From: Sneathiella sp. HT1-7
GTDB taxonomy: Bacteria; Pseudomonadota; Alphaproteobacteria; Sneathiellales; Sneathiellaceae
NCBI RefSeq assembly: GCF_020731145.1
Contig: NZ_JAJFZN010000002.1
Location: forward strand, 124,001 to 188,000
Length of the DNA: 64,000 bases
Reading direction: 5' to 3'
Positions 4,456 to 39,494 of the stretch are shown here, piece by piece. The notes under the pieces are model-generated. The model was not told the origin of the DNA, ran no database searches, and saw nothing but the letters and a program-made list of their open reading frames with translations. How positions within the stretch are numbered: the first letter of the stretch is position 1; each line of letters starts with the position of its first letter. The position numbers and the translations under genes are program-made.

Positions 4456-4507
4456 TGGTGCCCAGGGGCGGATTCGAACCACCGACGCGCGGATTTCCAG
4501 TCCGCGT
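4456..4507 (-). repeat. 3' half of a tRNA-Phe gene (putative attachment-site copy)
   Basis: From 4456 the sequence matches the intact tRNA-Phe at 39419 base for base through the CCA end, T arm and variable region (31 bases identical). After two substitutions the match continues through the 3' part of the anticodon stem, then stops. Six flanking bases (ggaaaa) before the CCA are also shared. The D arm and 5' acceptor strand are missing, so it cannot make a tRNA. Partial copies of exactly this kind are what integrases acting on tRNA 3' ends leave at the far end of an island. A broken integrase lies 1.9 kb away. Confidence 0.85.
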
Positions 4508-4577
4508 GGATTTAGCTTTTTGAAAGATAGTTTGAACCGTAGTCCTTGCTATGAACTGAGAGTGAGGGCTATTTAAT

Positions 4578-5300
4578 TCAGCAATTTTTGTAGCTGTTGT
4601 CGATGCAATAATTGGCTAACTTTTTAGCTTTTTCGATTGCTTCTTTTGTCATTTTGTTCTCAAGCCGTTGTTTTAATTTGTCTGCTCCGTAATGTCCTCG
4701 CCCGGAAGCGACTGAATACCACATTAGAGATCGTTCATAATCTTTCTCAACTGCCTGCCCATAATAATACATTCTGCCGAGGCTGAATTGAGCATCGATG
4801 TTTCCTTGACTTGCTGCGAGCCGATACCATTTCAACCCTTCTTCATAATTTGCCGTGACAAAACGATTGTTTACATACATATCACCAAGGATATTTTGTG
4901 CTAACGCGAACCCTTGCTCCGCTGCCATTGTGAACCATTTGCGTGCCGCTTGATAATCTAAGGGTACCCTCTGCCCACGAGAATAAATGAGCCCCAGACT
5001 ATTTTGAGCGACGACATCACCGGAATTTGCTGTGGCCTCAATTTCCCGGATTGCAACACTGTCTGATTGTAGCACTCCTTGCCCTTCGTATTCAGCGTCT
5101 ACTATGGCAACCGCTCTGTCGCATTTGTCTATATTCGGGGCTTTGTTTGGATCCAGATCCCTCTTATTGTCAGCATAGCCTATATTGAAAAACCGATCGG
5201 TTGCGTACCAGGTTTTAATAGCCTTGATTTTGTATGATGGGTTGCCGCCAGCATAAAATTGCGAGCAGAGCTCACTATGGCTCGTATTCCACCCAACCAT
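4578..5300 (-). CDS. Sel1-repeat (TPR-like) protein, probable lipoprotein with a frameshifted N-terminus
   Basis: The open frame gives 240 residues with at least three consecutive Sel1-like repeats of about 36 residues (for example AQNSLGLIYSRGQRVPLDY, AQNILGDMYVNN, AQFSLGRMYYYG), a helical-hairpin scaffold for protein-protein contacts. The ATG at 5300 is the first in frame but has no convincing ribosome site. The reading frame continues upstream through codons that spell a lipobox (VPVLFLAAC) without any start codon. An ATG at 5388 preceded by gagga (5400-5404) enters that signal peptide in another frame, separated by a run of six A on the + strand (5379-5384). The intact gene probably spans 4578-5388 with a one-base change. 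Function unknown. Confidence 0.7.
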   Translation of the reverse strand: MVGWNTSHSELCSQFYAGGNPSYKIKAIKTWYATDRFFNIGYADNKRDLDPNKAPNIDKCDRAVAIVDAEYEGQGVLQSDSVAIREIEATANSGDVVAQNSLGLIYSRGQRVPLDYQAARKWFTMAAEQGFALAQNILGDMYVNNRFVTANYEEGLKWYRLAASQGNIDAQFSLGRMYYYGQAVEKDYERSLMWYSVASGRGHYGADKLKQRLENKMTKEAIEKAKKLANYCIDNSYKNC

Positions 5301-5525
5301 ATAGGGGTTATGGCTTTTAAAGTTTGTTGAAGGCTCAATTGTTGTTGTGCAGGCTGCGAGAAAAAGAACCGGTACGACAAAAAAGCATTTGAAGGAGTAT
5401 CCTCAAAAAAGTCGTTTGCAAAATAGCAGAGCAACCTATGACGATATTCTCGCAATATATGAACAGGCAAAAAACAAACGAAACGGACTAGCATTGCAAC
5501 CGTCGTAAAACGTCTCACTGTCATC

Positions 5526-37257: not shown

Positions 37258-38283
37258 ATGAGTGATACAAAGAATAATGATTTATCAAAAGGCGTGTGGT
37301 TCGTCTATGACGGGGATTGCCCGATTTGCAATCTGGCAGCACAGTCACTACGCATTCGGGAAGCCGTCGATCCGTTATTTCTGGTCAATGCACGCGAAGA
37401 AACAGATCACCCTCTTTATCTGGAGATAGTGGATCAAAATCTAGACCTTGATGAAGGTATGGTCCTTAGATACGGCGATAGGAATTATCACGGCCAAAAT
37501 GCACTCCAAATGATGGTGCTTTTGGGAAGTAGAAACGGTTGGTACAACCGTATGAATTCATTGCTGTTTAAATCACCGGCAATTGCGAGGTTCTTGTATC
37601 CGATAATGAAACTGGCCAGAAATACGCTTTTGAGAATCCTCAGAATTCCGCGCTTGCAAAACCTTGAAGATGCGAAAGACGCATATCCTGTTTTCAAAGA
37701 GGTATTCGGTGATACTTGGCCAAATCTACCTCCTGTCATTAAGGCTCATTATGCGGCGAGATCTTATTCGGAGGATCGGGTGATTGTTGACGGGCATTTG
37801 AATGTGTATGTGCATCCTTTATTGGGGTTTTTTGCTCGACTGACCGGTTTACTGGTTCCCTTTTCAGGTGAAAACGTTCCTGTTCGAGTGACCTTTAAAG
37901 CAGCGCACCATGATAATACCTTGGAATTTGATAGGGTATTTAGTTTTAAAGGACGCAAGCCTGTTCATTTCAGATCTAAGATGAGGCCTCAGCCAAATGG
38001 AGATGTCATAGAGCTTATGCGCTTTGGTTTTGGCTGGCGATTTAGATGCGAATGGCGGAAAAACAGAGTGATCTTATCTCATCTGGGCTATGTGTGGCGC
38101 TTTTTAGGCATGAATATCCCGATGCCATTCTCCTTGATTTTAGGTAAAGGTTACGCGGAAGAGTCTCCTGTGTCCGATACAGAATTCTCAATGTGGACCC
38201 ACACGATGCATCCCCTGTTTGGAAAGATGTTCGGCTACGAAGGCTCCTTCACAATAACGGATATGAAATGCGACCCATATTAA
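37258..38283 (+). CDS. DCC thiol-oxidoreductase-like domain fused to DUF4166
   Basis: A 341-residue protein. Residues 10-125 are a DCC (YuxK-like) domain with YDGDCPICNLA, the CxxC-type site named after the family; residues about 160-341 are DUF4166 (NVYVHPLLGFFARLTG, RFGFGWRFRCEW). The start at 37258 is preferred over 37210, which would overlap the divergent gene; the ribosome site is weak. It overlaps the next gene by 16 bases. DUF4166 is often fused directly to a saccharopine-dehydrogenase-like domain; here that partner is the following gene, so the two proteins probably form one unit. Confidence 0.8.
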   Translation: MSDTKNNDLSKGVWFVYDGDCPICNLAAQSLRIREAVDPLFLVNAREETDHPLYLEIVDQNLDLDEGMVLRYGDRNYHGQNALQMMVLLGSRNGWYNRMNSLLFKSPAIARFLYPIMKLARNTLLRILRIPRLQNLEDAKDAYPVFKEVFGDTWPNLPPVIKAHYAARSYSEDRVIVDGHLNVYVHPLLGFFARLTGLLVPFSGENVPVRVTFKAAHHDNTLEFDRVFSFKGRKPVHFRSKMRPQPNGDVIELMRFGFGWRFRCEWRKNRVILSHLGYVWRFLGMNIPMPFSLILGKGYAEESPVSDTEFSMWTHTMHPLFGKMFGYEGSFTITDMKCDPY

Positions 38284-39356
38284 TTCTTGGTGGTTACGGT
38301 AACTTTGGGAAGCGAATTTCCAGGTCGCTCGCGGCGGCAGGCGTCCCTGTAATCATCGCTGGAAGGAATGAAGGGAAGGCTAGTCTTCTTCTAAACACCT
38401 TGCCAGGGCAGGGTCACGGCGTGGCGATTTTTGATGTAGACCAAGACTTAAAACTTCACATGGCAAAATTGAAGCCTTCTTCCGTCATAAACACTTGTGG
38501 CCCGTTTCAGTCGGCTGACTACTCGATTGCCAAAACATGTATTGAGGAAGCAATCCCGTATATTGATCTGGCAGATGCCAGGGATTTCGTATGCGGAATA
38601 ACTGAGTTGAATCAAAATGCGATTGATGCGGGCATTCCTGTGATTAGCGGCGCAAGTACGGTGCCCGGACTCTCATCAGCAGTCCTAGAAGAATATGGTC
38701 ATGAATTCTCACAGATTACGTCACTAAAATTCGGAATTAGCCCCGGACAAAAGGCGGAAAGAGGATTGGCGACAACTCAGGGGATTTTAAGCTATGTCGG
38801 AAAGCCATTACGACAGTTTGCAGGCATCGACCCAAATATTTTTGGCTGGCAAAATCTATATCGCCAAAAATATCCTGTAATTGGCAAAAGATGGATGGCC
38901 AATTGTGACATTCCAGATCTTGATTTACTGCCAAAGGCATATGGCATTGATAGAATTCAATTTTCTGCGGGATTGGAGCTGGCGCCGTTGCATCTGGGGC
39001 TGTGGGTGATGTCCTGGTTAGTCAGATTGGGCGTTCCAATTGACTTGCCAAAATTATCTGGACCGCTTTTGCGGATTAGTAATTGGTTAAATCACTTTGG
39101 CACTGCAGATGGTGGCATGCATATACTTCTGGAGGGGTATGACATCGCGGGGCAACCGCATCATCTTGATTGGTTCATTATTGCAAAGAATGGAGATGGC
39201 CCACAGATACCAACGATACCCGCGATAGTTCTCGCCAAGAAAATTGCGAAAGGGGAATTCCCGGCTGTGGGCGCCATGCCCTGCGTTGGCCTCGTCTCGC
39301 TATCAGAGTATCTCGAAGAGCTTTCTGCCTTTGAAGTCAGTACCTATCGAGCATAG
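38268..39356 (+). CDS. Saccharopine dehydrogenase-like NADP-binding protein
   Basis: A 362-residue protein starting RPILILGGYGNFGKRISRSL, a glycine-rich nucleotide loop, with VINTCGPFQSADYSIAKTC near residue 78 and SGASTVPGLSS near 127, the hallmarks of the saccharopine dehydrogenase NADP-binding group outside lysine metabolism. The ATG at 38268 lies inside the tail of the previous gene. Actual substrate unknown; homologues reduce lipids or trans-acyl bonds. Last gene before tRNA-Phe. Confidence 0.85.
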   Translation: MRPILILGGYGNFGKRISRSLAAAGVPVIIAGRNEGKASLLLNTLPGQGHGVAIFDVDQDLKLHMAKLKPSSVINTCGPFQSADYSIAKTCIEEAIPYIDLADARDFVCGITELNQNAIDAGIPVISGASTVPGLSSAVLEEYGHEFSQITSLKFGISPGQKAERGLATTQGILSYVGKPLRQFAGIDPNIFGWQNLYRQKYPVIGKRWMANCDIPDLDLLPKAYGIDRIQFSAGLELAPLHLGLWVMSWLVRLGVPIDLPKLSGPLLRISNWLNHFGTADGGMHILLEGYDIAGQPHHLDWFIIAKNGDGPQIPTIPAIVLAKKIAKGEFPAVGAMPCVGLVSLSEYLEELSAFEVSTYRA

Positions 39357-39418
39357 CACATTCGCTGACTAATGGCCTAAGGCTTGACCGCGGGAGCGTT
39401 TCGTGAGGCTTCGGAAAA

Positions 39419-39494
39419 TGGTGCCCAGGGGCGGATTCGAACCACCGACACGCGGATTTTCAGTCCGCTGCTCTACCAACTGAGCTACCTGGGC
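39419..39494 (-). tRNA. tRNA-Phe (GAA)
   Basis: The minus strand folds into a full cloverleaf of 76 bases: acceptor GCCCAGG/CCTGGGC, D stem GCTC/GAGC, anticodon stem GCGGA/TCCGC with loop CTGAAAA (anticodon GAA), T stem GGTGG... with TTCGAAT loop, discriminator A and encoded CCA. The 3' end lies at the low coordinate, which is where islands would enter. It is the template for the fragments at 4456, 8524, 33482 and 36725. Confidence 0.97.

Follow-up and report, generated by a model that had tools for sequence, protein, structure and literature searches.

How does a genome come to carry several partial copies of one tRNA gene, all on the same side of the intact gene and all facing the same way? 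We addressed this question in Sneathiella sp. HT1-7, in a window of 64,000 nucleotides (nt) (assembly GCF_020731145.1, contig NZ_JAJFZN010000002.1, positions 124,001 to 188,000), where an initial annotation, made from the letters alone, had noted, at coordinates below that of the intact tRNA-Phe gene (39419), four fragments of its 3' end and had suggested repeated insertion, decay and possibly tandem growth at that 3' end. Related genomes support this suggestion through the sites that they carry, the polarity of these sites and the modules that have changed place between them. We conclude, with a probability of roughly 0.83, that Sneathiella carries a tandem-accretion array on the 3' side of tRNA-Phe, shaped by the accretion of islands, the loss of their integrases and the exchange of modules between species.

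Fragments of tRNA-Phe and their polarity

The four fragments are real and lie as had been described. An ungapped scan with the first 32 bases of tRNA-Phe found 31, 23, 29 and 24 identities at 4456, 8524, 33482 and 36725, in identical orientation and in every case between long genes, with a 122-amino acid (aa) open reading frame (ORF) without a Pfam match overlapping the last of them. The match at 4456 stood, whereas its length of 32 bases did not, as 48 of 50 bases plus a 6-base flank agree with tRNA-Phe. Since the best matches on the opposite strand reach 25 identities at 50352 (tRNA-Thr) and then 22 at 10691, the copies at 8524 and 36725 are marginal on identity alone, the weakest being 1 and 2 identities above the best opposite-strand match outside a tRNA. 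This would be compatible with the four copies having arisen by chance, or being tRNA-like repeats unrelated to integration, an explanation to which we give next to no credence in view of the site model, the polarity and the module borders described below. Sites were modeled by sequence only, and for the window a leave-out model was built from 20 sites of other species, with the window genome excluded. It gave 53.9 bits at 4456 and 53.7 at 33482 (54.6 for tRNA-Phe itself), 34.1 bits at 8524 (E 7.7e-8) and 24.1 bits at 36725 (E 1e-4), and the next-ranked match in the 3.83-Mb genome, at tRNA-Thr, scored 16.6 bits. Equally good matches elsewhere in the genome are therefore absent, and chance is rejected for the weak copies.

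The same sites recur across the genus with a strict polarity. A genome search yielded 23 Sneathiella genomes in addition to that of the window (24 in all; individual genomes are given as G numbers), and those with the neighboring RNase gene include S. litorea, S. chungangensis, S. sedimenti, S. glossodoripedis and metagenome assemblies. Sequence to the left of the tRNA (3.2 to 159 kb each) was taken for 19 Sneathiella genomes with an intact tRNA and for one genome of the same family; less than 4 kb was covered in G009 and G018, so that the absence of fragments there is uninformative. Fragments with at least 25 of 38 identities were present in 11 of the 19 (one doubtful match in G004 was dropped). 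Over the 1,293,647 bases left of the tRNA, 40 matches at this level faced the same way and none the opposite way (49 and 3 at a level of at least 24 of 38). Over 188,709 bases to the right, the corresponding counts were 1 and 5 at the first level and 1 and 6 at the second, at least one of those facing the opposite way being tRNA-Thr. The full site model returned 83 matches across the 24 genomes at E <= 0.001: 20 intact tRNAs, 40 sites on tRNA-bearing contigs within 130 kb, one distant site in G022, 390 kb from tRNA-Phe, and 22 on other contigs. All 40 sites on tRNA-bearing contigs lie on the 3' side of the tRNA in a single orientation. Of the sites returned, 23 had served as the training set of the model. 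As many as nine sites are recognizable in one stretch (G022).

Other site-like sequences were seen along the way. G002 holds 17 matches at E <= 1, of which 15 (including the tRNA) reach E <= 0.001 (loci L034-L141); they are scattered over contigs that include C184, C187, C199, C148, C194 and C118, with a 99-bp spacing between sites occurring twice (C184, C148). Isolated sequences at G022:C1:1122780 (30 bits) and G021:C5:196389 (27 bits) are distant from, or unlinked to, the tRNA-Phe array. When 241 genomes of the class were scanned, most of the 237 from outside Sneathiella showed the tRNA match alone; seven (G130, G133, G107, G084, G031, G162 and G224) had three to five matches and may, judging by these matches, hold arrays like those of Sneathiella.

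Order, borders and contents of modules

The right side of the tRNA served as a control for shuffling on the left: there, all aligned blocks keep the same order and strand in 10 of 10 pairs of five species, at 69-80% identity. Genes on the left of the tRNA in the window are also found on that side in relatives, where their distances from it differ, and the shared modules are ordered differently in the window genome and in S. chungangensis. What was found is thus the opposite of a conserved order with all intervals shared: order differs and orientation is kept. Among relocated blocks (at least 300 bp and out of colinear order; for all block analyses the site set excluded two weak plus-strand matches, G004 -23959 and G022 -69663), 33 of those at least 75% identical have the same orientation and none is inverted. 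Of the 39 left ends of shared blocks, 14 coincide with a site, compared with 5.3 for random intergenic points, and 0.1% of trials reach 14.

Identity between species on the left side reaches 84-97%, compared with the 69-80% of the right side. The largest example is the ~25-kb module of the window (Table 1), of which 8569-33223 has a counterpart with unchanged order in S. litorea, in successive blocks that are 91, 88, 89 and 90% identical, at 127-153 kb from the tRNA and with about 0.7 kb more near 14.6 kb; the core DNA of the two genomes is 78.5% identical. The homologous stretch sets in 14 bases past the 32-base fragment at 8524. Judged by such identities above that of the core, modules have been transferred between species.

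Several modules are bounded by sites in more than one genome. The symporter module ends at site 2 in the window and abuts tRNA-Phe itself in G002, which provides the empty configuration that the initial annotation had proposed to look for in relatives. Module D, which lies between site 4 and the tRNA in the window, is present over its full length in S. chungangensis (77%), where it is 19-21.7 kb away from the tRNA and flanked by one site and one decayed site. Further cases are a module at the tRNA in G020 and at site -22698 in G022, and one that runs from site to site in both G015 and G021. The first 0.66 kb of the DUF2339 module recurs at a site in G002 (88%), and the left end of the small IntPhe-type element, common to S. 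chungangensis (84%) and S. sedimenti, always starts at a site.

One might picture the fragments as a plain chronological ladder, in which each island entered at the tRNA and pushed the earlier ones outward, distance being equal to age. Over 48 sites, the first 16 bases are indeed less identical to the tRNA of the same genome the farther out a site lies (Spearman -0.35, p 0.014), a trend in which the weak sites were partly found by their similarity to the others. In the window, from the outermost to the innermost site, 16, 11, 15 and 10 of these 16 bases match; it is not the copies closest to the tRNA that are best preserved, and the series, with its outermost copy least decayed, is not a simple time series. 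Insertion at internal sites or the transfer of ready-made blocks is therefore needed. A ladder would also not predict the different order in S. chungangensis, nor an extra 99-bp unit that sits, in G002, exactly within the junction that is direct in the window at site 3. We rejected the ladder for the window and hold it to be highly improbable in general.

A number of observations weigh against the accretion array. Movement is read from sequence, with no excision or circle observed, and relocated blocks below 75% identity have no polarity (12 in the same orientation and 13 inverted). Right ends of shared blocks are not enriched at sites (7 of 39, compared with 5.7 for random intergenic points). 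At 23 borders that other genomes predicted where no site had been seen, five had site-like sequence above the 95% level of random windows (none in reverse), and 18 had no recognizable site, including that of a block 97% identical between S. litorea and S. sedimenti. No tyrosine recombinase was found in module D or in the ~25-kb module to show how these two moved. Finally, one site in G002 faces the opposite way to its two contig neighbors, and two sites in other genomes are far from any tRNA-Phe array. The borders without sites, the unenriched right ends and the lack of a recombinase in several modules would all fit an exchange of modules mainly by homologous or illegitimate recombination between the arrays of related cells, with the fragments as fossils of a few old islands that take no part in the shuffling. 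Such recombination would not, however, predict the strict polarity of young relocated blocks, the left borders at sites or the restart of homology just after fragment 8524, and we consider it unlikely. Under the accretion reading, transfer would in each case have been site-specific rather than homologous.

The contents of the modules bear on a caveat raised at the outset, that the envelope genes at 8.5-14.5 kb look like core genes. These genes are accessory: the L,D-transpeptidase (E <= 1e-40) is found in 3 of the 24 Sneathiella genomes and the MlaE copy of the ~25-kb module (E <= 1e-60) in 4, with matches inside this array in both S. litorea and S. sedimenti and on site-carrying contigs in G002 and G007, and they belong to the module that is ~90% identical in S. 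litorea. GC content is lowest in the Sel1-integrase element (0.437) and is 0.457 in module D, with 0.500 right of the tRNA; at 0.487 the ~25-kb module is near average, so that GC alone would miss it. The Sel1 gene, which had been called broken, is open over 240 aa. Within the ~25-kb module, the remnant at 14632-14872 shows homology to part of a single-gene module, an intact form of which lies elsewhere in the array, at -13145..-12228 in window coordinates, and, in S. litorea, at the same place as the remnant.

Table 1. Features of the tRNA-Phe array in the window
Feature	Position	Strand	Description
Site 1, class A	4450..4507	+	50 nt of the tRNA 3' half (48/50), then element arm GTGGATTTAGC
Small IntPhe-type element	4508..7030		Right limit approximate; Sel1-repeat ORF, unnamed ORF, integrase remnant
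Sel1-repeat ORF	4578-5300	-	
Unnamed 253-aa ORF	5526-6287	-	
IntPhe-family tyrosine integrase remnant	6382..7021	-	6385-6930 plus a further piece, 6875-7021 (aa 103-135)
Symporter module	7031..8523		One sodium:dicarboxylate symporter gene, 7118-8455 (+)
Site 2, class B	8518..8571	+	Decayed; T-loop CAACG
~25-kb module	8569..33481		MepK-like peptidase, L,D-transpeptidase, Mla transport, catabolic genes, TRAP transporter, thioesterase
Site 3, class B	33476..33536	+	Arm GACTAATAGCCCGTCGGCATGCC
DUF2339 module	33514..36724		One DUF2339 membrane protein gene
Site 4, class B	36718..36771	+	Most decayed of the four
Module D	36757..39418		DUF2269, DCC1/DUF4166 and saccharopine-dehydrogenase-like genes
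tRNA-Phe(gaa), intact	39419..39494	-	Anchor and primary attachment gene; sole full-length copy in the genome

Integrases, site classes and mechanism

Integrase remnants lie at the sites. As had been claimed, the integrase gene of the window is broken: 6385-6930 is interrupted by one TAG and is 87% identical to aa 131-312 of an intact tyrosine integrase of 313 aa (IntPhe), which S. litorea encodes 0.9 kb from a class A site. Besides the remnant in the window, there are three more in S. litorea, two in G022 and one each in S. sedimenti and G009, which with the intact gene amounts to nine loci in five genomes, none of them more than 2 kb from the tRNA or a site, and five no farther than 30 bp. 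This position suggests that IntPhe is specific for tRNA-Phe, and its family probably made the class A junctions. Six other integrases among the matches listed (<= 65% identity) are in other genomes and away from sites. No relatives of IntPhe were confirmed in viral contigs, and those in phages and plasmids were below 60% identity. As candidates for a shared trans-acting integrase, 16 further integrases were compared, none of which is common to all genomes with a ladder. Separately, an intact 429-aa integrase in G018 (locus L102, 1643-2932), unlike IntPhe, adjoins tRNA-Phe (3188) and reads away from it; two further sites of this genome are on contig C7, one of them 1 kb from the contig end, and may be a continuation of its array. 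Another integrase family of ~390 aa, 75-97% identical across Sneathiella (L114, L115; loci in G002, G013, G014, G017 and G020) and with two copies in the window genome (C6, C8), is not near sites.

The sites fall into two classes. Class A copies (4456 in the window, and copies in S. litorea and S. sedimenti) match the tRNA over 50 nt and continue with GTGGA; class B copies match it over ~32 nt and continue with a common non-tRNA arm, GRCNGATANNGCGTCGGCATGC. Many class B copies have NAACG in place of the ATTCG of the tRNA T-loop, a loop that a working tRNA could not carry. Where the window and G002 are compared at site 3, the T-loop letters follow the right-hand neighbor, and the crossover of class B is therefore placed left of base 17. 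In all, four pairs that share the left module change T-loop with the right neighbor (G000 and G002 at site 3, as above; G017 and G002; G000 site 2 and the G002 tRNA; G022 and the G020 tRNA), whereas one pair disagrees: G015 -12359 and G021 -15207 have homologous right-hand modules and different T-loops. Class B junctions would then stem from a second specificity, with a crossover within roughly the final 16 nt of the tRNA, a placement that the Mesorhizobium integrase IntS fits in using the 17-bp 3' end of phe-tRNA, as described in part of PMC5882170. A phage source of class B sites was sought as well. The exact pattern GGYAACGAACCACCGACA matched once in viral contigs; since this match falls within an ORF of 301 aa on a phage-like contig, we took it as chance. 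A 66-nt consensus matched no phage, and where it matched plasmids the agreement stopped after about 38 nt from its start, which is what the end of a tRNA-Phe would give.

Taken together, the accretion array probably formed as follows. Islands with a tRNA-Phe-directed tyrosine integrase would recombine their attachment site with the 3' part of the tRNA, or with an older site of the array, such that the tRNA is kept whole and its displaced 3' part persists beyond the insert, at the far end, as a direct repeat. Decay of the integrase genes would follow, leaving integrase-less modules between fossil sites, and modules or blocks of them would pass between species and re-land in the same array in the same orientation, which would scramble the order and keep the polarity.

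The second site class also invites comparison with an integron-like platform, in which integrase-less modules are moved in trans, the tRNA being the primary site and class B copies the dedicated module sites. The non-tRNA arm and frequent NAACG loop of class B, the four pairs in which the loop changes with the right-hand neighbor and the relocation of integrase-less modules would all suit such a platform. It is at odds with the discordant G015 and G021 pair, and no dedicated recombinase was found: the array of G022 has no PF00589 match (three Pfam tyrosine recombinases are present genome-wide), and the tRNA of the window is adjoined on its right by an RNase E/G-family gene and maf rather than by an integrase; IntI-specific features were not searched. 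Integrases may also have been lost after transfer, and we regard the integron-like platform as rather improbable. A tentative and similarly doubtful proposal is a tRNA-anchored platform for module capture, whose sites would have diverged into dedicated module sites and whose integrase-less modules of 0.1 to 25 kb would be inserted one-way at internal sites by integrases supplied in trans, leaving the essential tRNA untouched.

Relation to known systems

A literature search found no description of the tRNA-Phe array of Sneathiella. As an accretion array, it would account for the turnover, at a single locus, of a genus-wide share of the accessory genes for catabolism, transport and the envelope, and it warns that core-looking genes at the tRNA-Phe locus are mobile cargo. 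The series of sites also allows one to ask how integration sites evolve once freed from rebuilding a tRNA, and whether integrase-less modules move in trans.

The closest parallel is the tandem accretion of integrative and conjugative elements (ICEs) and integrative and mobilizable elements with decayed members (cis-mobilizable elements), as set out in the relevant part of PMC5704250. As in such arrays, an intact tRNA is accompanied by 3'-end fragments as direct repeats on its 3' side; at several sites the repeats delimit segments that relatives lack or have in another place, although 18 of the 23 predicted borders show no site; and a matching integrase is present in some members (IntPhe, intact in S. 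litorea) and lost in others (remnants at eight loci), with a specificity that its position suggests. Compared with the accretion described there, Sneathiella differs in having up to nine sites in one stretch, a reordering that is species-wide, a second site class with its own arm, and modules that can consist of a single gene or of some 90-100 bp. Additive flexible genomic islands, e.g., the tRNA-Lys island of Ca. Methylopumilus with its 20-bp repeats (PMC10872708), the tRNA cassettes of Ca. Actinomarinales (PMC7771536) and Alteromonas fGI1 (PMC4119200), likewise combine, in the portions of these accounts that describe them, variable gene blocks at a fixed tRNA with direct repeats of the tRNA 3' end, integrases being no stated part of those cassettes. 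The Sneathiella locus, whose right side is colinear, shares with them differing blocks across species at the same place and tRNA repeats, and goes beyond those descriptions in its second, non-tRNA site class, the integrase remnants at its repeats and the count of polarity.

Other systems share single features. In Mesorhizobium, the phe-tRNA gene is the site of ICEMlSymR7A, which by its description in part of PMC5882170 is a 502-kb conjugative element with its own integrase, IntS, and differs in this from the array of Sneathiella. Tycheposons of Prochlorococcus, as they are portrayed in sections of PMC10872708 and PMC11389934, also place cargo at tRNA genes with tyrosine recombinases. Rhodovulum phage RS1 carries near its record start a tRNA-Phe-like stretch of 50 nt (JF974307.1 133-182, L124) that is 88% identical to site 1 and is likely a tRNA-Phe-directed phage attachment site; the phage also has an annotated 'integrase'. 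Set beside these systems, the array is a genuine and much-used place of entry for foreign DNA, belongs to a type that other bacteria are known to have, and is unusual in the second site class with its own non-tRNA arm, together with an unusually clear polarity and reshuffling.

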